The notes under the pieces are model-generated. The model saw nothing but the letters and a program-made list of their open reading frames with translations. It made no database searches and was not told the origin of the DNA. The position numbers were made by a program, and so were the translations under genes. From a virus, in the IMG/VR virus record IMGVR_UViG_3300050821_002969, positions 64,001 to 103,362 of that record: DNA of 39,362 nucleotides; one strand, given 5' to 3'. Of this stretch, positions 1 through 12,218 are shown in pieces (within the stretch, counting starts at the first letter, position 1; the number at the start of each line of letters is the position of its first letter).

Positions 1-315
1 AGAATAACAAGCAATCAAGTGGCCAATGTATATTTGTTGCAAACATTGCACGTTACGTCTTTTGTTCGCTTTTATTTGGCGCTAGTTTGGCTTGTAACTT
101 GTTGAATGTTCGTTAGATTTCCACAGCCATGCCAGTGCGTTTTCCCGCGTCTAGGCAAGCGAACGTGTTTTGATGCCACTGAGGTATTACCGTGCTCCCG
201 TTCGTGCATCCTAGACGATTCGCATATTGAGACAAGATGCCCGCATGTTTCGCCATTACTTCGCCTTGCAACCATTGGCATGGTTTGGTCATCTTATTTA
301 TCGGAGGTAAATACC
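1..315. other. gene-free leader region
   Basis: No convincing gene on either strand. Open frames exist on both strands but lack ribosome binding sites and look non-coding. The region ends in a strong Shine-Dalgarno (CGGAGGTAA at 302-310) that serves the gene starting at 316. It probably holds the promoter of the + strand cluster, but I could not pick a credible -35/-10 pair. Confidence 0.4.
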
Positions 316-552
316 GTGACAATCACAAAGGTATTAGAGACTTGGAGCACCAAGGGATTGCGGTATCAGATTGAACTAGCAGAACAGTTACCGGATACCG
401 GAAACAATTATTACACTGTCACCGATTACACTCATGGGCGCGTTACCGGTTGCGCCGTAGTCAACACCTTGGAAGATGCCAAGATGCGGCTATTCATTGG
501 CATTGACTATGCCAAGATGGACGGTATCAATTACCAGAAAGTAGGCGCGTAA
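316..552 (+). CDS. hypothetical small phage protein (78 aa)
   Basis: I do not recognise this protein. The open frame extends upstream to 106, but the start chosen is GTG at 316 because a strong Shine-Dalgarno (CGGAGGTAA) sits six bases before it. The product is soluble, with no membrane segment or cysteine cluster apart from one Cys. Its stop TAA overlaps the ATG of the next gene (TAATG), so the two are probably translationally coupled. It is the first gene of a + strand run of small early-type genes at the left end. Confidence 0.7.
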   Translation: MTITKVLETWSTKGLRYQIELAEQLPDTGNNYYTVTDYTHGRVTGCAVVNTLEDAKMRLFIGIDYAKMDGINYQKVGA

Positions 553-797
553 TGATCGAATACCACGTAGGCGAGCACCGAAACGGGCGAATAAAGTTTA
601 CAACCGATGTAGACTGCCTCTCGCCCGATATCCTGCGGTATAGCAAGCAAGTCTTCCCTGACCGTAAAGCGGTTATGGACCAAGCATACATCCTAGCCGG
701 GCGCGGTTTTAGCGTATGTGTGGACGATGAACAGGGGTTAGATGAGCTAACCCCGTACATGGTAGGTGGAAAGCAAGAGGGTATATCCCATGTCTAG
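552..797 (+). CDS. hypothetical small phage protein (81 aa)
   Basis: Unrecognised soluble 81-residue protein. It starts at the ATG inside the TAATG junction with the previous gene, so expression is probably coupled. The sequence is mixed polar and acidic (VCVDDEQGLDELTPY near the C-terminus), with no membrane segment and no metal-binding motif. Its end overlaps the next start at 790 by eight bases, typical of packed phage early operons. Confidence 0.7.
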   Translation: MIEYHVGEHRNGRIKFTTDVDCLSPDILRYSKQVFPDRKAVMDQAYILAGRGFSVCVDDEQGLDELTPYMVGGKQEGISHV

Positions 798-999
798 ACG
801 CCTACGTGATCGTAATCTATCCGACCTAACGCCTACGCTTGCAGAGTATATCTTGTGGCGAGCGATAGACCACCTGAATACCGCTGATTACCTCGGAGGA
901 AAGCAATACCCCAGCTATGGCGAGCGCCTAGAGGCTAGGGTTATCCTTCGACGGTGTATCTGTACTCTCAAAAACCGCAACGTTTGTACCTGCCACTAA
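790..999 (+). CDS. hypothetical small basic phage protein (69 aa)
   Basis: Unrecognised. The frame is open from 766, but ATG at 790 has a purine-rich Shine-Dalgarno (AAGAGGGT) a few bases upstream and is preferred. The product is Arg-rich (MSRRLRDR) and ends with three cysteines and a histidine (RRCICTLKNRNVCTCH), which could bind a metal. It is the last gene of the first + strand cluster and is followed by a palindrome and a terminator hairpin. Confidence 0.65.
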   Translation: MSRRLRDRNLSDLTPTLAEYILWRAIDHLNTADYLGGKQYPSYGERLEARVILRRCICTLKNRNVCTCH

Positions 1000-1005
1000 A
1001 CCGCG

Positions 1006-1018
1006 TACATTTAACGTA
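1006..1018. repeat. palindrome TACATTTAACGTA, copy 1 of 3
   Basis: Near-perfect 6-bp inverted repeat with a one-base centre (one mismatch). It sits six bases after the stop codon at 999 and just before the terminator stem at 1022. Two further copies (TACATTTAATGTA at 1600-1612 and 2846-2858) occupy the same stop-to-terminator position after - strand genes. Confidence 0.7.
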
Positions 1019-4392: not shown

Positions 4393-4555
4393 AGTGGTTA
4401 TCTCCTTCCAGTTGATACAGGATAAACCGGCATTGCTCTAAGGCGAGAATGGTATCCCGTAATTGATTGGCCAATCTAATCTCCATGCGATTAGCTCTAG
4501 CCATAACAAAAGCTGAGCGTAACTCGGTTTCGGCTTTGATTAGTTTTTGTTTCAT
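4382..4555 (-). CDS. hypothetical helical protein (57 aa)
   Basis: A 57-residue highly helical, charged protein (MKQKLIKAETELRSAFVMARANRMEIRLANQL...), probably coiled coil. Its ATG overlaps the TGA of the metallopeptidase-like gene (ATGA) and its C-terminus overlaps the next start. Function unknown; a scaffold or partner of the membrane peptides is conceivable but unsupported. Confidence 0.55.
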   Translation of the reverse strand: MKQKLIKAETELRSAFVMARANRMEIRLANQLRDTILALEQCRFILYQLEGDNHYAN

Positions 4556-4899
4556 TCGTATGTACCCAGCGCGGCCTTTTCTTGCTGTTTTTCGAGATGC
4601 GGGTTAGCTATTTCGGCAAGATTCCATGCCTCTTTTTCTCCCGCTAATTCATTGCTCCCCCATGCCGCCGAAGTATGGAGCAATTCTCCTATGAGATGCC
4701 CAAATTCATGCGCTAGCGTGGTAGCGGTATTGCTTATTCCGTGGTATGGAATCCCCCGGTATTCCATTTCGTCCTTATCTACCTGTGGGGTTAACACGAT
4801 TTCGTATGTCTTCCCGCGCTCTATCGCTTCGATATGCGAGGAAACGTCTGTGCTTGCGTTGTCTAGATAGACTGAAACCTGCCCAAGTAGTTTTCTCAT
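4552..4899 (-). CDS. HExxH mini-metallopeptidase-like protein, paralog 1
   Basis: A 115-residue protein with a zinc-binding helix LAHEFGHLIGE (about residues 63-73) and, roughly 25 residues later, GEKEAWNLAEIANPHL. The HExxH motif plus a downstream Glu in an E-x-A-W context is the arrangement of gluzincin-like and ImmA/IrrE-like peptidases. The N-terminal part (VYLDNASTDVSS, TYEIVLTPQVDKDEMEY) forms beta strands shared with the paralogs at 5426 and 7499. It is shorter than known peptidases, so it may be a minimal protease or a metal-binding regulator. It is coupled at both ends by ATGA overlaps. Confidence 0.6.
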   Translation of the reverse strand: MRKLLGQVSVYLDNASTDVSSHIEAIERGKTYEIVLTPQVDKDEMEYRGIPYHGISNTATTLAHEFGHLIGELLHTSAAWGSNELAGEKEAWNLAEIANPHLEKQQEKAALGTYE

Positions 4900-5054: not shown

Positions 5055-5426
5055 TTAATTTATCTCCTCTCTTGTGCAGGTTGCCTCTATCCACGCACCA
5101 TTGCTGCCCTTGATGCGCACGATTACGCTATGCAAGTCAATTTGTTCTGACAGCAATCTCGCGCATAGCTCTTTGGCTGCGGTTAGCGCCATGCGCTCAC
5201 ATGAGATTCCCTTCCACGTAGGTGCAAGCTTGCCAAACTTGGAATCAAAATAGGTTTGTATTTCCTCGTTGTTCATCACAAACCCTTCCCGAGTTAGCCG
5301 CTCATCTGTGGCGTTAATGCGGACGAAGTAGCTGTAATTTTTGGTTCGCATAGCCGCGCATTTGCAAGACGTGGCTACCATGTTAGCCGCGTGGAATTTA
5401 CCGTTGCGCTCTAGGGAAACAAGCAT
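5055..5426 (-). CDS. QueD/PTPS-like T-fold protein, catalytic ligands apparently lost
   Basis: A 123-residue protein whose block order resembles the 6-pyruvoyl/6-carboxy-tetrahydropterin synthase fold: KFHAANMVATSCKC (compare F.AAH....C), TKNYSYFVRINAT (compare HGHsY.v.v), LTREGFVMNNEEI (compare G.v.Df..i), then SCERMALTAAKELCARLL (compare P-T-x-E-N-L-A) and a final VIVRIKGSNGAWIEAT strand. The metal-binding AAH and HGH histidines are absent (AAN, RTKN), so if the fold is right it is not an ordinary synthase. The start at 5426 overlaps the upstream stop (TAATG). This is a fold-level guess by eye. Confidence 0.4.
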   Translation of the reverse strand: MLVSLERNGKFHAANMVATSCKCAAMRTKNYSYFVRINATDERLTREGFVMNNEEIQTYFDSKFGKLAPTWKGISCERMALTAAKELCARLLSEQIDLHSVIVRIKGSNGAWIEATCTREEIN

Positions 5427-5860
5427 TATCTGTACGTCTCGCTTCCCGCGCCACTAGCACCATTTGTGCTGTATCCCTCTAGCGCCGCATGTTTGATACC
5501 TTGGCTTAACTTCGGGTTAATGATTTCCCCAAGCTCCCAAGCTTTTTCCTCTGCTGCTATGTTTAGGCGAGAATCGCCAATCATCACAGAAAGAATTTTC
5601 AGTTTGGGATTGTGGGTAGGATCATTAAACACCGTAGCCACGAAATGACCTAGCTCATGCGCTAGCAACGTTTCTACGCTGGCAAGATTGCGCGGCTGTC
5701 TAATTGCCTCAAGAATTGGACCGTCAACCTTGGGGCGCAGGGTAATGGTGTAGTGGCTCCTGTCGCCTCTTGGTTTCAACATTCCGCTTGGGAAATCGCC
5801 TAGCGGATCATTGATACCATCCGAAATAACTACGTCTAGAGTTGCAATCGTGGTCTGCAT
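5426..5860 (-). CDS. HExxH mini-metallopeptidase-like protein, paralog 2
   Basis: A 144-residue paralog of the 4552-4899 protein. It has TLLAHELGHFVATVFNDPTHNP near residues 63-84 and AAEEKAWELGEIINPKL about 25 residues after HELGH, giving HExxH plus a downstream Glu. The N-terminal half carries the shared beta segment YTITLRPKVDGPILEA. A Gly/Ser tail (STNGASGAGSETYR) ends the protein. The ATG directly follows the stop of the gene at 5861-6013, and its stop overlaps the QueD-like start. The substrate is unknown. The third copy at 7499-7810 shares the HFVA...PTHN stretch. Confidence 0.6.
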   Translation of the reverse strand: MQTTIATLDVVISDGINDPLGDFPSGMLKPRGDRSHYTITLRPKVDGPILEAIRQPRNLASVETLLAHELGHFVATVFNDPTHNPKLKILSVMIGDSRLNIAAEEKAWELGEIINPKLSQGIKHAALEGYSTNGASGAGSETYR

Positions 5861-6013: not shown

Positions 6014-6176
6014 GCACACTCCAATAGTCATCCTCAGATGTGTTAAACGAACAGTTATCCAAGGCGGGATTGCATACCTCGGCTAGCTTGCGCCCAAGGA
6101 TATCGGGCGGAATAAATAGCTCGCCGTCCTCGCGTTCTGCTTTTTGCTGGATACAAAAGGGAATCAGGTTAACCAT
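6006..6176 (-). CDS. hypothetical small acidic protein (56 aa)
   Basis: The frame opens at 6197, but ATG at 6176 (MVNLIPFC) has AGAGGAAAA upstream and overlaps the stop of the repeat protein, so it is preferred. The middle section, GRKLAEVCNPAL, resembles the 'LAEIANPHL'/'LGEIINPKL' segment that follows the zinc site in the metallopeptidase-like paralogs, so this could be a remnant or partner of that family lacking HExxH. Confidence 0.5.
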   Translation of the reverse strand: MVNLIPFCIQQKAEREDGELFIPPDILGRKLAEVCNPALDNCSFNTSEDDYWSVHE

Positions 6177-6804
6177 TGGATTTTTCCTCTTCCGCAAAAC
6201 GCTTTGCGGCTACGGCAAACACTTTAATGTATTCACCGTATTCCTTAATCTCTGCCGCGCTATAACCCTCCATGCGCCCAATCGCCTTGTACTTTTTTTG
6301 CCATTCGGTAATCGTTCTAACGTGGCAGCCAATAGCAATTTCGTTAAAAGACGCCAGCGTTAGCGAGTGGCGAGTACCCTGAATATAGAGCGGAGACTTA
6401 ACCCAAGCGTTGCCGTACACCCAAGCGTTGCCGGACACCTGAGCGTCGCCGTACACCTGAGCGTTGCCGGACACCTGAGCGTCGCCGGACACCTGAGCGT
6501 TGCCGTACACCTGAGCGTAGCCGGACACCCGAGCGTTGCCGGACACCTGAGCGTTGCCGGACACCTGAGCGTTGCCGTACACCTGAGCGTAGCCGAACAC
6601 CCGAGCGTTGCCGGACACCTGAGCGTTGCCGTACACCTGAGCGTAGCCGGACACCCGAGCGTAGCCGGACACTATTCCTCCAATTAATGCCGTAGCGGCG
6701 GCATAGCTTGTCTCAAAAACCCACCCATTACCGTTAGCGTGTTGTTTCCATTGCTCTGGTTTGGTGGACGGGAATAACGCAATTACTTGTTCTATGGTTT
6801 TCAT
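6169..6804 (-). CDS. hexapeptide-repeat left-handed beta-helix protein
   Basis: A 211-residue protein. Residues about 45-133 are a run of about 15 six-residue repeats of the form [YS]-G-[NDY]-A-[QRW]-V, a pattern that folds as a left-handed parallel beta-helix. It is flanked by an N-terminal domain (MKTIEQVIALFPST...GWVFET) and a C-terminal domain (PLYIQGTRHSL..EIAIGCHVRTITEWQKKY) that accompany such repeats in other phage proteins. No transferase catalytic residues are evident. The role is unknown; binding or scaffolding is possible. At the DNA level the repeats are near-identical 18-mers, so copy number may vary. Confidence 0.7.
   Translation of the reverse strand: MKTIEQVIALFPSTKPEQWKQHANGNGWVFETSYAAATALIGGIVSGYARVSGYAQVYGNAQVSGNARVFGYAQVYGNAQVSGNAQVSGNARVSGYAQVYGNAQVSGDAQVSGNAQVYGDAQVSGNAWVYGNAWVKSPLYIQGTRHSLTLASFNEIAIGCHVRTITEWQKKYKAIGRMEGYSAAEIKEYGEYIKVFAVAAKRFAEEEKSNG
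6395..6675. repeat. 18-bp coding tandem repeats
   Basis: About 15 tandem copies of an 18-base unit (consensus on the + strand GCGTTGCCGGACACCTGA, with TAC and TAG variants) that encode the hexapeptide repeats. High identity between units suggests recent expansion or homogenisation by recombination or slippage. Confidence 0.85.
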
Positions 6805-7458: not shown

Positions 7459-7498
7459 AGTTGGCCCCAAGGAATACGAATTAGACGTTTGTCCGTTA

Positions 7499-7810
7499 GT
7501 GGACGAGCGTATTTTGGAGGCCCACAAAAAGGCTGGGAGAATCGAAGGTTCCACGCTGGACCTAGTTCAATCTATTATCGCGCACGAACTTGGGCATTTC
7601 GTGGCGCACATTACCAAGTGTCCCACCCACAACCAGTCAACATTCGACAAGATTCCGGTAACCATTAACGGGGAAGCTGCCGTGGTTGGCGTATCGGTGC
7701 CAGCAGAAATTAAGGCATGGACGTTGGCGGGAGAGATTTTGGGAGACAAATTAAACCAAAAACTTAGGACTGCGGCTACGGCTACTTATCTAATGGGTAG
7801 GGCCGCTTGA
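7499..7810 (+). CDS. HExxH mini-metallopeptidase-like protein, paralog 3 (probably frameshifted)
   Basis: The body contains IIAHELGHFVAHITKCPTHN and, further on, PAEIKAWTLAGEILGDKL. This matches paralog 2 (HELGHFVATVFNDPTHN, EEKAWELGEIINPKL). The GTG at 7499 lacks a ribosome site. Homology to paralog 2 continues upstream of it in the same frame (EYELDVCPLVDERILEA versus HYTITLRPKVDGPILEA), back to at least 7466 where no start codon exists. The true gene therefore probably begins at 7285 and is broken by a single extra base near 7446-7457, or depends on frameshifting. It lies on the opposite strand from its paralogs. Confidence 0.55.
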   Translation: MDERILEAHKKAGRIEGSTLDLVQSIIAHELGHFVAHITKCPTHNQSTFDKIPVTINGEAAVVGVSVPAEIKAWTLAGEILGDKLNQKLRTAATATYLMGRAA

Positions 7811-7839
7811 CTTTGTTCGGGGCGTGGCGTTAGATTAGG

Positions 7840-8150
7840 TGCAGTGAGTTTGTGGGCGTGATCGTTTCTTGAACCGGGACGGTCCCCCACAAACCATAAT
7901 TCACCGGTTCAAATGTCATTCCTCGAACAATTCGATCCAATGCCCTTGCAGCCGGAAAGCTGTCTAGCCAAGTAGGATTGTGCCTGCAAGGGTAGATCGG
8001 TGCCAATAGGCGCGTGAGCCGTGAGCCATCGTTAGGGGATTCGACTTCTGCGGGAGCCGAAAATAGCCAAGCAACACTTCACGCTGCAAAGCGACCGACG
8101 ATGACGGCATACCGTTATTGCGCTGGCAGAGAATAGGTGTTTCACCCAAT
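7840..8150 (+). ncRNA. candidate structured RNA with H-type pseudoknot
   Basis: The gene-free stretch 7811-8221 folds well on paper. GTTTGTGGG (7848-7856) pairs with CCCACAAAC (7886-7894). The loop segment TTGAACCGG (7869-7877) pairs with CCGGTTCAA (7904-7912), so two 9-bp helices interlock as an H-type pseudoknot. Next come TCGAA/TTCGA (7923-7935) and CCCTTGCAG (7943-7951) with CTGCAAGGG (7984-7992). Then follows a nested set: GGTGCC (7999-8004) with GGCATACC (8106-8113), CATCGT (8027-8032) with ACGATG (8098-8103), and inside them CGCT-GCAA-AGCG (8082-8093), a GNRA-loop hairpin. GGTG-TTT-CACC closes at 8146. The strand is assumed from the neighbours. It does not match tRNA, and I see no group I P7 core. 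Confidence 0.45.
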
Positions 8151-8221
8151 CTTTGCTGTCTCCCTCTGAATCGGGCATGACTAGAAACAAAGTCAAAAGC
8201 TAAACAAAACGCGGAGGGACT

Positions 8222-8320
8222 ATGAATAAGCTCGAAAAGATTTACGAATCCTACTGCAAGTGGTGCGAATCTCTTGGTATTAAACCAGCGCCATTTGTGG
8301 AGTGGTTATTCTTGAAATGA
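8222..8320 (+). CDS. hypothetical mini-protein (32 aa)
   Basis: A 32-residue frame with a strong ribosome site (GCGGAGGGA, about five bases before ATG). The peptide has two cysteines in YCKWC and an aromatic C-terminus (FVEWLFLK). It precedes a small gene in the same orientation and follows the structured RNA candidate. Real translation is likely from the ribosome site; function unknown. Confidence 0.5.
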   Translation: MNKLEKIYESYCKWCESLGIKPAPFVEWLFLK

Positions 8321-8849: not shown

Positions 8850-9427
8850 CTCGCGAACAACTCCGCGCATTGCTGGAGGCGGCCAAGGCGGAGCCAAGAG
8901 AACATCTGTTGATTCTTTTGGCTTATGCCCACGGCTTGCGAAGCACAGAAGCGGTTAACGTCTGGCTTGGACCAACTACTGCGCGTATCAAGACAATCAA
9001 AAACGGCAAAGTATCCAGTGTGCCAGCGCCGTATATTGAGTCAAACACGCTTATCGTGCAAAGGTTAAAGGGGAGCGAATGCACGCGGCAGCCGTTAGTA
9101 ACTAATCCCGACCCACTATTCGACGAAGTGGGGTTGCTGGCCGGTTTGCCCAATGGCAGATTGTTTCCTGATTGGACAAGACATGACTTCAACAACCTAA
9201 TGCGTGCTTACGGCAAACGCGGCGTGATTCCACAATACCTAGCGCATCCTCACGCTTTGAAGCGTAGCATTGGTAAGCACATGGTACGCGGGGCCGGATT
9301 GGAGAATACCAGCGTATACCTTGGTCATAAAAACTGGAATAGCACCAAAAGTTACGCAAAGTCAACCGATGCTGAAGCATCGCAAGCAATGACTGAAGCA
9401 GTATTTGGCCGCGAGGAGGCGGCGTAA
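8837..9427 (+). CDS. tyrosine recombinase (integrase family), catalytic domain only
   Basis: A 196-residue protein with the layout of the phage integrase catalytic domain: AYAHGLRSTEAV with catalytic Arg about residue 35, HPHALKRSIGKHM with the HxLKR box about 139-143, YLGHKNW with His about 164, and nucleophile Tyr about 173 in KSYAK. All expected positions are filled, so it may be active. It lacks the N-terminal arm- and core-binding domains of full-size integrases (usually 300-400 residues). It could act in genome integration, dimer resolution or inversion. GGAGAAAGT precedes the ATG. No attachment-site repeat was identified nearby. Confidence 0.85.
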   Translation: MRFLTREQLRALLEAAKAEPREHLLILLAYAHGLRSTEAVNVWLGPTTARIKTIKNGKVSSVPAPYIESNTLIVQRLKGSECTRQPLVTNPDPLFDEVGLLAGLPNGRLFPDWTRHDFNNLMRAYGKRGVIPQYLAHPHALKRSIGKHMVRGAGLENTSVYLGHKNWNSTKSYAKSTDAEASQAMTEAVFGREEAA

Positions 9428-9431
9428 AATA

Positions 9432-9854
9432 TTGGTGGCCTGGAAAATAGAATTACCGCCAGAGAAACAATGCATGGGCTGCGGAGTCCGGTTTAGGGGC
9501 AGAAAGAATAAACTTTACTGTTCGTCGAAATGCGGCACGCTCCACGGGGATTACGACAATGGATTCTCTTTCTCTAAATATCCAGGATTATCAACTGGAA
9601 CGATTGGGGCAATTGGCGAACTTATGGTTTCCGCTGATTTGTTGATGAAGGGATACGAGGTTTTCCGCTCCGTTTCCGCTACTTGTTCTTGTGATTTGGC
9701 CATCCTTAAAAACGGTAAATTCCTTAGAATAGAGGTTAGGTCTGGCTACAAAATTAAATCTGGAGAGCTTCGTTATCTCGGAAAAGTGCGAGCAGACCAC
9801 GTAGCCATAGTTTTCAAAAACGAAATAGAATATAGCCCAAAACTACCGGATTGA
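9432..9854 (+). CDS. PD-(D/E)XK-like endonuclease with Zn-finger N-terminus (mobile endonuclease family)
   Basis: About 140 residues. The N-terminus carries a treble-clef-like zinc site (CMGCGVRFRGRKNKLYCSSKC). The rest matches the small group-I-intron-type PD-(D/E)XK endonuclease layout: GAIGELMVSADLLMKGYEVFRSVS with a helix Glu, then SATCSCDLAILKNGKFLRIEVRSGY with the Asp and Glu of the D...ExK-like site (here EVR), followed by VRADHVAIVF. AGGAGG (9414-9419) favours the TTG at 9432 or GTG at 9435, although TTG at 9405 is also in frame. Its end overlaps the convergent - strand gene by twelve bases. It is likely a free-standing homing-type nuclease. Confidence 0.6.
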   Translation: MVAWKIELPPEKQCMGCGVRFRGRKNKLYCSSKCGTLHGDYDNGFSFSKYPGLSTGTIGAIGELMVSADLLMKGYEVFRSVSATCSCDLAILKNGKFLRIEVRSGYKIKSGELRYLGKVRADHVAIVFKNEIEYSPKLPD

Positions 9855-10480: not shown

Positions 10481-12218
10481 CTTTGGTAAACGCGGCTAGA
10501 TTTTTGGAACCGTGATATGACTTGTTGCGCTCTATCTTTTGCGCGGCTTGTTCGCGTGCTCCCTTAACTACGTTGGCGCGACTTTCCACTTTGGTCTTTT
10601 GGGCAGATATTTCCTCTGGAGTAGAACCCTCCCAAATTATGTCCGTACCCCGTTCGGGGATGTTGATTTTATATCCCGGAGTACGAGGCATAAAAGCATT
10701 GGTTGGCGGTGGCACGCTTGGACCCTGAAGCGAGACATGCAAACCAGTGTCGCCACGATCTTTCAATAATTGCCATCCCGCCCTAATATCATTGTCCCTT
10801 GGATCGCCTAGCAACGCACGCTTGCCGCGTACCAACGAAGCCTCGGCTGCGCGATATGGAGTAGGAGCCACGTCGCCAAGCGGGATTGCCGCTTTGCCGC
10901 GAGCCTGTTGCCATCGGCGCTCCATGGTGTCTGCTACGTCCCTCAATTGGCCGTTCCTAGTCTTAATCTCGGCAACATTTACCCCCAGCCTATCGCCTAC
11001 ACGGTTCTGTAGTTCCCCATATAAAACCTTGCGAATCGAGCTAGCCTCTCTACGCAATTCAGTTTCCGCCCCGACGGCCGCTTCGGATGGCAATCCCCCT
11101 TTGCCGCGCTCATAGTTTTTGAATAACATATCATTCAAATCGTTGAGCCTAGTGTCTAATTGACGCAGAGTTGCGGTACCAGTGTCTTGGTTGTATGCAC
11201 CTTGGTAGTTGGGGATTCTAGCCTTTGCCATTACTTCTACGTCTTGAACTGGGGCAAGTATATCTCGTTGGTAAAGCGAATGGAATTTATCAGCAGTTTG
11301 CATAGATAAATCAATCAAATCGCGTCTACCCTTTGGCTCTAGTCCGGTTTCTTGGGAGGTACCAATTAAATATGGCAGGTTCGATTTAAGCTCTTTGTCG
11401 AACTTCGCATAGTCGTTCCGCGCGGCATCGCCTTCCGCTCCAGATAACGCAACCTCTTCTGGTGGGTTGACTGCTCTAACCAGTAAATCGGCAGGTGTTT
11501 TGACATACTTGTTTTCCTGTGCCATTCTGACGGCATCAAATACTTCTGGGGTCCAGTGTGTGATCTGCCCTACTGGCAGCCCAAATAGGGTTGCCACTCC
11601 GGCAGACTCTAATGCTTGACTCGGAGTTGCTCCATGAGTTAATGCGACCCCACCAGCTACCGCACCCTGACGCATGGATTGCATCCCAAGTTCAAGCGCC
11701 CTCTGCACTTTTGGGGCAGTTTCTAAGGCTTTGTGAATCTTGCCAACCATCAGATATTTATCGCCCAGCGTTAACCCCTTAAGCGCTTCGTCGCCCAAAA
11801 CAAACTCGCCAACACCTTCTAGTCCAGCCCCTAGCGCCTCTCCTGTCCCTTCTGGCGTATTGGGATTAATGTCTGTATTAATAGGATTTTCTGTCTTTTC
11901 TGGTAATCCTTGAAGGTGCGCTAAATTGATCGCGGAACCAACGGTTCCCGTTGGCCCAAATTGCCCAGCGGCGTGTACCGTGGAGGCTAGCGCTTTGCCG
12001 ATTCCAGCAGGAATACCACTTGCGGCTTGTCCAAGCTGTTCTGGATCGGACAAGTTTACTGGTGATTGGTCGGTATTTTTGTTACCTAAGTTTAACGGCG
12101 GCGGAATCGGACGCGATGCCGCTTGATCCCAAATATCTCCATCTCCAGATTGTGGTTGCGGTGGTTGCGGTGTCGTAGTCTGCAGTCTTGTTGCTGCATC
12201 GTCCCAAATATCGCTCAT
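10470..12218 (-). CDS. putative internal virion / ejection protein (582 aa)
   Basis: A 582-residue protein starting MSDIWDDAATRLQ and repeating the DIWDQAASRP motif at about residue 28. Such repeated 'DIWDxA' leaders are typical of large phage internal proteins. A Pro-rich N-terminus is followed by Gly/Ala-rich possibly membrane-active segments (GEALGAGLEGVGEFVLG, GAVAGGVALTHG) and long charged helices (LRREASSIRKVLYGELQNRVGDRLG). It sits with the lysozyme-like and Gln/Ala-rich coiled-coil genes, the usual neighbourhood of podovirus ejection proteins. No enzymatic domain recognised; assigned from context. Confidence 0.5.
   Translation of the reverse strand: MSDIWDDAATRLQTTTPQPPQPQSGDGDIWDQAASRPIPPPLNLGNKNTDQSPVNLSDPEQLGQAASGIPAGIGKALASTVHAAGQFGPTGTVGSAINLAHLQGLPEKTENPINTDINPNTPEGTGEALGAGLEGVGEFVLGDEALKGLTLGDKYLMVGKIHKALETAPKVQRALELGMQSMRQGAVAGGVALTHGATPSQALESAGVATLFGLPVGQITHWTPEVFDAVRMAQENKYVKTPADLLVRAVNPPEEVALSGAEGDAARNDYAKFDKELKSNLPYLIGTSQETGLEPKGRRDLIDLSMQTADKFHSLYQRDILAPVQDVEVMAKARIPNYQGAYNQDTGTATLRQLDTRLNDLNDMLFKNYERGKGGLPSEAAVGAETELRREASSIRKVLYGELQNRVGDRLGVNVAEIKTRNGQLRDVADTMERRWQQARGKAAIPLGDVAPTPYRAAEASLVRGKRALLGDPRDNDIRAGWQLLKDRGDTGLHVSLQGPSVPPPTNAFMPRTPGYKINIPERGTDIIWEGSTPEEISAQKTKVESRANVVKGAREQAAQKIERNKSYHGSKNLAAFTKDDE

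Follow-up and report, generated by a model that had tools for sequence, protein, structure and literature searches.

A family of large pseudoknotted RNAs with an invariant core in uncultured phages

The locus

The window analysed here is a stretch of 39,362 nucleotides that corresponds to positions 64001-103362 of the IMG/VR virus record IMGVR_UViG_3300050821_002969 (103,362 bases), from an uncultured phage. Within it, a protease-motif gene lies upstream of a stretch without a plausible gene (7811-8221), and small ORFs, an integrase and a PD-(D/E)XK nuclease lie downstream. The first-pass annotation had described these roughly 410 bases as gene-free, and this was borne out, the sole frame in the mechanical ORF list being one of 61 aa on the minus strand (7964-8149). 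When its fold was compared with those of shuffled sequences, the plus strand gave z-scores of -5.9 (7811-8221) and -6.9 (7805-8198), and of -3.9 when the sequence was limited to the likely transcript. The minus strand, with a z-score of -1.6, showed no such excess of folding.

Relatives of the RNA

With a conserved 20-mer of this region as the starting point, six further distinct homologues were retrieved from seven IMG/VR contigs, two of which have the same RNA. The string GGGGATTCGACTTCTGCGGG was found in three other viral contigs, in which 24 more flanking bases are identical, and further patterns retrieved L015, L016 and L017, and then L038. The RNAs of L015 and L016 are the same, so that eight contigs represent seven distinct RNAs: the window, L005, L006, L007, L015 (= L016), L017 and L038. 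A covariance model, R1, was built from these seven; it scores 116-136 bits in all members, with one copy per virus record, and it can be used for finding hosts and more members.

Searches beyond these members gave no further relatives. R1 found no additional match in 28 loci and 10 virus records, and its best score in 398 sampled Pseudomonadota genomes was 26 bits, which is chance level against the 116-136 bits of the members. BLAST detected no relative among 50,697 phage or 72,556 plasmid records, and with the region or its 75-nt core as query against phages, plasmids and E. coli genomes it returned nothing or chance matches of 20-35 nt. A pattern scan of genome contigs produced one match, which lay inside a protein-coding gene and was rejected as chance; two viral pattern scans gave many chance matches in coding DNA, and those tested with R1 scored nothing. 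With the integrase as query for relatives there were no matches. As most scans required part of the conserved block at 8027-8038, more diverged members may exist.

Promoter and extent of the RNA

The 5′ and 3′ surroundings of the RNA in the window contain the following features.

7807-7812, plus strand: TTGACT, -35 element of a predicted sigma-70-type promoter, overlapping the stop codon of the upstream gene
7830-7836, plus strand: TTAGAT or TAGATT, predicted -10 element after a spacer of 17 or 18 nt; its position relative to the first helix is similar in six of the seven members
7843-8175, plus strand: the whole structured RNA, its putative 5′ end taken from the promoter and its putative 3′ end from the last conserved block
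8222-8320, plus strand: downstream ORF of 32 aa with a good ribosome site (GGAGGG), differing from the downstream gene of the other members

The promoter of the window is the best-scoring one in the 75 nt around the 5′ end of the RNA, and 0.3% of random windows reach its score under a matrix of approximate E. coli frequencies. Its predicted transcription start is at about 7842-7844. A sigma-70-like promoter ends 4-26 nt before the first helix (P1) in six of the seven members, L017 being the one in which none was found; by member, the share of random windows that score as well is 0.003, 0.056, 0.09, 0.002, 0.01, 0.363 (L017) and 0.013. These predictions support transcription of the RNA from a sigma-70-type promoter of its own, situated just before the first helix. 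Taken together with the last conserved block, the promoter suggests that the RNA of the window probably runs from about 7843 to about 8175, which would give a length of about 330 bases in a family of about 320-400 nt. The window also contains a long-range closing pair of 9 bp (7808-7816 with 8187-8195), which probably lies outside the RNA because its 5′ arm sits in the predicted promoter.

The 5′ pseudoknot domain

The first part of the RNA is predicted to form the following elements.

7848-7856 (GUUUGUGGG) with 7886-7894 (CCCACAAAC), plus strand: P1, 9 bp; a perfect P1 with differing letters occurs at the same place in all seven members
7860-7864 with 7880-7884, plus strand: P2, 5 bp, stacked inside P1, its loop holding the pseudoknot strand; a counterpart exists in six of the seven members
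7869-7877 (UUGAACCGG) with 7904-7912 (CCGGUUCAA), plus strand: pseudoknot helix, 9 bp, replaced by other pairings in the relatives
7920-7935, plus strand: motif UCCUCGAACAAUUCGA, joining the pseudoknot domain to the core; a similar CUC..UUCGA motif is seen in six of the seven members

The two interleaved and perfect 9-bp helices that had been noticed at the outset, GTTTGTGGG with CCCACAAAC and TTGAACCGG with CCGGTTCAA, are present exactly at the coordinates given above for P1 and the pseudoknot helix. None of 1000 dinucleotide shuffles of the 130-nt region reached an H-type pseudoknot of 18 bp. This domain is too diverged for alignment, and the members were compared one by one by their best pseudoknot. 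It was found at the same place in each of them, and shuffles equalled it in 0, 39, 50, 14, 0, 0 and 3 of 1000 cases. The counterparts of the pseudoknot helix in the relatives are UGAUCGG/CCGAUCA, GCCAGAG/CUCUGGC, AAGCGCC/GGCGCUU, GCCAAGGAGC/GCUCCUUGGC and CGCCAGUGGUUC/GAACCACUGGCG, so that one topology is built from different letters in all seven RNAs. It is weak in L007, where the second helix overlaps P1 by one base and 5 bp remain. By these comparisons, the predicted 5′ domain is an H-type pseudoknot whose letters change freely while the pairing is kept.

The conserved core and the 3′ part

Downstream of the pseudoknot domain we could assign the following elements.

7964-7976 with 7983-7995, plus strand: core helix 1, loop AUUGUG; 8 of 10 pairs compensatory, 97% of cells paired
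7998-8004 (CGGUGCC) with 8024-8031, plus strand: core helix 2, with five invariant pairs, enclosing helix 3
8009-8011 with 8018-8020, plus strand: helix 3, a small hairpin with one compensatory pair (C-G to U-A in L006)
8027-8038, plus strand: invariant block CAUCGUUAGGGG, identical in all seven members; part of it was a requirement in most scans for relatives
8040-8061, plus strand: core helix 5, a UUCG-AC-UUC-UGCG-GGA-GC-CGAA hairpin with a UNCG-type loop; 5 of 8 pairs compensatory
8064-8071, plus strand: invariant block UAGCC(A/G)AG, in which CC (8067-8068) pairs with GG (8035-8036) to form the invariant helix 4
8084-8087 with 8126-8129, plus strand: helix P8, assigned by hand, without a formal significance test
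8128-8132 with 8150-8154, plus strand: P9, a tentative terminal hairpin, assigned by hand
8164-8172, plus strand: conserved tail CUCUGAAUC, present in five of the seven members

Covariation across related phages, which the first-pass annotation had proposed as a check, was determined on a core alignment (A1) of the seven distinct RNAs with 114 positions and 30 pairs. Compensatory changes were observed at 14 of the 30 pairs, and 97.6% of cells were paired; sliding one strand dropped the pairing to 33-51%. There were 31 double-change cells against 8.3 in shuffles, and no shuffle reached any of five covariation measures. At one pair of helix 1, CG, GC, AU, UA and GU all occur, and the UUCG/CGAA of helix 5 is replaced by GCUG/CAGC, AUUG/CAGU or AUUA/UAAU in relatives. 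Helices 2 and 4 are nearly invariant and hence outside the reach of the covariation test. In most relatives P8 extends to 5-7 bp (CUGACCA/UGGUUAG, CUGACUA/UAGUCAG, CUUUGC/GCAAAG, GCAAGC/GCUUGU). That these sequences constitute a real structured RNA family is, in our judgement, virtually certain.

Two elements that had been part of the initial description turned out to be confined to the window. A further 9-bp helix (7943-7951 with 7984-7992) can indeed form there; it is not kept in relatives, and it overlaps and competes with the covarying hairpin 7972-7976/7983-7987 of helix 1. Similarly, the hairpin closing on a GCAA loop near 8083-8092 exists in the window, and the relatives form another helix at this place.

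Among the kept pairs of the core alignment we counted about 15 G-U cells, compared with 1 cell that would read as G-U if the other strand were the RNA, and this retention of G-U pairs points to the plus strand as the RNA. It also argues, as does the fixed position of the promoter, against a DNA-level element (a replication origin, or a packaging or recombination site) in which the hairpins would act as single-stranded DNA. Such an element would suit the location of the RNA, which follows recombination genes and in several members precedes replication-like genes; we consider this explanation very unlikely, the more so as the fold signal of the window is strand-specific, though that of the relatives is not clearly so. 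The relatives have modest z-scores of -1.4 to -3.6, as is to be expected because the pseudoknot cannot be modelled, and the case rests on covariation.

Coding potential

In five of the seven members (L005, L006, L007, L015 and L038) one frame (..CCA TCG TTA GGG..) runs without a stop from end to end of the RNA, the chance of which is about 0.07-0.19 for each, and this could be taken as a sign of a protein-coding gene or its remnant. The same frame contains 4 stops within the RNA in the window, by which coding is already excluded there, and 3 in L017. The differences within the open frame show no excess at third codon positions and no sign of selection at the protein level, and the part of the frame within the RNA has no Pfam or PHROG match. 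Since the helices covary as well, a coding origin, which the first-pass annotation had named among the findings that would overturn its proposal, appears extremely improbable. We do not read the open frame of the five members as coding. In L007 it joins the downstream gene, which encodes a DUF559-type endonuclease (10662-11102, minus strand), lies directly after the RNA and is readable in frame with it.

Comparison with known RNAs

A scan against Rfam 15 at the gathering score gave no match in the window, L005, L006 or L007, and a scan to an E-value of 10 on stretches of the window, L017, L038 and L015 yielded chance-level fragments only (best E 0.42). The Rfam check suggested earlier therefore connects neither the window nor the relatives scanned with a known family. 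ARAGORN reported 0 tRNA or tmRNA genes in the window and L005-L007. Group I and group II introns had no Rfam match, and no gene is split at the site. These absences, together with the covariation and the recurring pseudoknot, support the initial view that the element is neither a tRNA nor an intron.

An element that cleaves or splices itself, be it a large ribozyme or intron-like, would be in keeping with the size of the RNA, its pseudoknot and its strongly conserved core, which are typical of large ribozymes, and with its appearance as an inserted cassette relative to L002, a syntenic phage. This explanation is improbable, as the RNA matches no Rfam ribozyme family, group I and II included, is not seen to split a gene in any member, and shows no flanking exon similarity to L002 that we noticed.

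Two short resemblances were also considered. The strings GGAUUCGAC and AAAAUAGCC within the RNA are reminiscent of tmRNA. Unlike tmRNA, the RNA has no tRNA-like domain, and GGAUUCGAC varies to GGAUUGACC, GAGCUGAC and GAAUUAGCC in relatives; the idea was rejected because the string is part of a covarying helix. GGUGCCAGYAG resembles the 16S 530 loop, a likeness that was rejected, being without BLAST support in E. coli genomes. We conclude that the RNA represents a new, previously uncatalogued family; it is no tRNA, tmRNA or intron, nor is it what remains of a coding sequence.

RNAs of large size in which much of the sequence is fixed have often proved to be catalytic, ribonucleoprotein or switching RNAs. 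Few such phage RNAs are known, and the function of GOLLD and ROOL is still unexplained. The present RNA adds to them a family with a defined predicted structure, a compact core of about 110 nt suited to binding or cleavage tests, and a likely promoter. Literature searches found no described phage RNA that corresponds to it, although absence there is not proof. GOLLD and ROOL are large pseudoknotted phage RNAs with strongly conserved parts, of unknown function and without a fixed protein partner (PMC12286853), and in being large and phage-encoded, and in its pseudoknot, conserved parts and want of a fixed protein partner, the RNA of the window is like them. It differs in being about half their size, in its architecture and in having no match in the Rfam scans; moreover, GOLLD and ROOL are often near tRNA islands, whereas no tRNA was found in the window or L005-L007. 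As judged from sequence and predicted structure, the family thus stands beside GOLLD and ROOL in kind and is unrelated to them.

Gene context

The genes around the RNA vary between phages. Upstream of it, L005, L006, L017 and L038 have an annealing-type gene, which is Erf-like in L038, and a YqaJ-type exonuclease; downstream, L005, L006, L007, L017 and L038 have an HNH gene, and a small gene and a replication-like gene are common to L005, L006 and L038. The RNA of L015 stands at the head of an operon, and the genes upstream of it are divergent. Among ORFs of at least 60 aa within 9 kb (a shorter distance at contig ends), no coding gene was common to all members. In L002 the upstream protease-like gene, a 95-aa gene and the integrase are syntenic with the window, and the RNA is lacking. 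This absence at a syntenic site, and the differing places at which phages keep the RNA, suggest the behaviour of an accessory cassette equipped with a promoter of its own.

The first-pass annotation had also offered the possibility of a regulatory leader for the recombinase cluster. As put there, this has become weaker: in other phages the directly downstream genes differ and are not recombinases, the recombination pair (Erf and YqaJ exonuclease), where present, sits upstream of the RNA, and L002 keeps the integrase without it.

Possible modes of action

The sequences support a terminal hairpin (P9) at the 3′ end of the RNA, which is terminator-like (a stem followed by UUUUC) in L015, L017 and L007; the conserved tail of five members lies beyond it. 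After the RNA of the window there is no clear or strong terminator. In every member the gene that follows is codirectional, with its start no more than some 15-70 nt from P9. According to the fold predictions, the ribosome site of this gene is fully paired in the window (0.00 unpaired) and 0.26-0.81 unpaired in the six relatives; with masking in the window only, ribosome-site masking as a general mechanism, that is a translational riboswitch, was rejected.

The best reading, which we put forward tentatively, is that of an early phage RNA which stands alone and binds a host partner through its invariant core. The RNA would be made from its own promoter, the pseudoknot domain would protect the 5′ end or serve as a scaffold, and the working surface would be formed by the invariant core (CGGUGCC, CAUCGUUAGGGG, CUGCGG, UAGCCRAG). 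Its probable partner would be a macromolecule of the host, for instance RNA polymerase, the ribosome or an RNase, because no phage gene adjoins the RNA in all members. In favour of a stand-alone role are its differing neighbours, a 103-kb phage with integrase and protease-like genes as against phages with Erf, exonuclease, replication and HNH genes. This reading is weakened by the lack of a strong terminator before a close codirectional gene, which also fits a leader, and by the conserved tail that five of the seven members retain downstream of P9. The host partner and the action in trans are purely what we infer, and the earlier proposals of a large ncRNA or a host-directed RNA would agree with this leading interpretation. 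If the RNA is indeed host-directed, phages would be using RNA alone to act on the machinery of the host, which would be new.

The main rival, which we regard as possible though not probable, is a cis-acting leader. Such an RNA would likewise be made from its own promoter, fold on the emerging transcript and act on that same transcript, either by rendering RNA polymerase resistant to terminators, in the manner of HK022 put, or through switching of P9 (attenuation, riboswitch-like). The promoter directly at the 5′ end, the codirectional gene close by, the weak terminator-like P9 immediately in front of that gene (most evident in L015, L017 and L007), the lack of a strong terminator in the window and the place of the RNA at the head of the L015 operon are all consistent with this. 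There is also a precedent in HK022 put, an RNA of about 70 nt with two stem-loops (PMC9378689): put is a phage RNA next to a promoter and read into downstream genes, as the present RNA would be, and the latter could act likewise on RNA polymerase. However, with about 330 nt, a pseudoknot domain and an unrelated multi-helix core, it is far from the simplicity of put, and so large an RNA with so many fixed bases would be unusual for a pure antiterminator. The downstream genes differ between members, which leaves no single regulated gene, and the masking confined to the window tells against a leader as well. Like large riboswitches and attenuating leaders, the RNA is structured and promoter-proximal, has core bases that are fixed, and places a terminator-like hairpin in front of a gene; it differs from them in that it has no Rfam match, its downstream genes vary and masking of the ribosome site is not conserved.

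A bolder reading, which we consider rather unlikely, is that an undescribed kind of RNA machine has its active site or binding face in the invariant core, or that the RNA is a new large ribozyme. As such a machine, the phage RNA alone would capture and reprogram an enzyme of the host, candidates being RNA polymerase, the ribosome and a defence nuclease.

Proteins encoded near the RNA

Small proteins with an HE(F/L/I)GH metalloprotease motif are encoded in the window at 4552-4899 (minus strand), 5426-5860 (minus strand) and 7499-7810 (plus strand) and in L007 at 52-1017 (minus strand), so that several related ones occur in one phage and its relatives. The 7499-7810 protein, the one of them that was tested, had no Pfam match. 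The protease-motif gene before the RNA (7466-7810, plus strand) seems to be shortened at its 5′ end in comparison with its 143-aa homologue in L002, to which the similarity appears to extend upstream of the first start codon. Repetitive proteins were also observed near the RNA loci. An ORF of 211 aa in the window (6169-6804, minus strand) contains about a dozen YGNAQVSGNAQVSG-type repeats and is likely to have a repeat-built fold, L015 encodes SVRASVGDSV-type repeats at 171-965 (plus strand), and L017 encodes pentapeptide ADLSG repeats at 9150-9653 (minus strand), both of these proteins being strongly repetitive.
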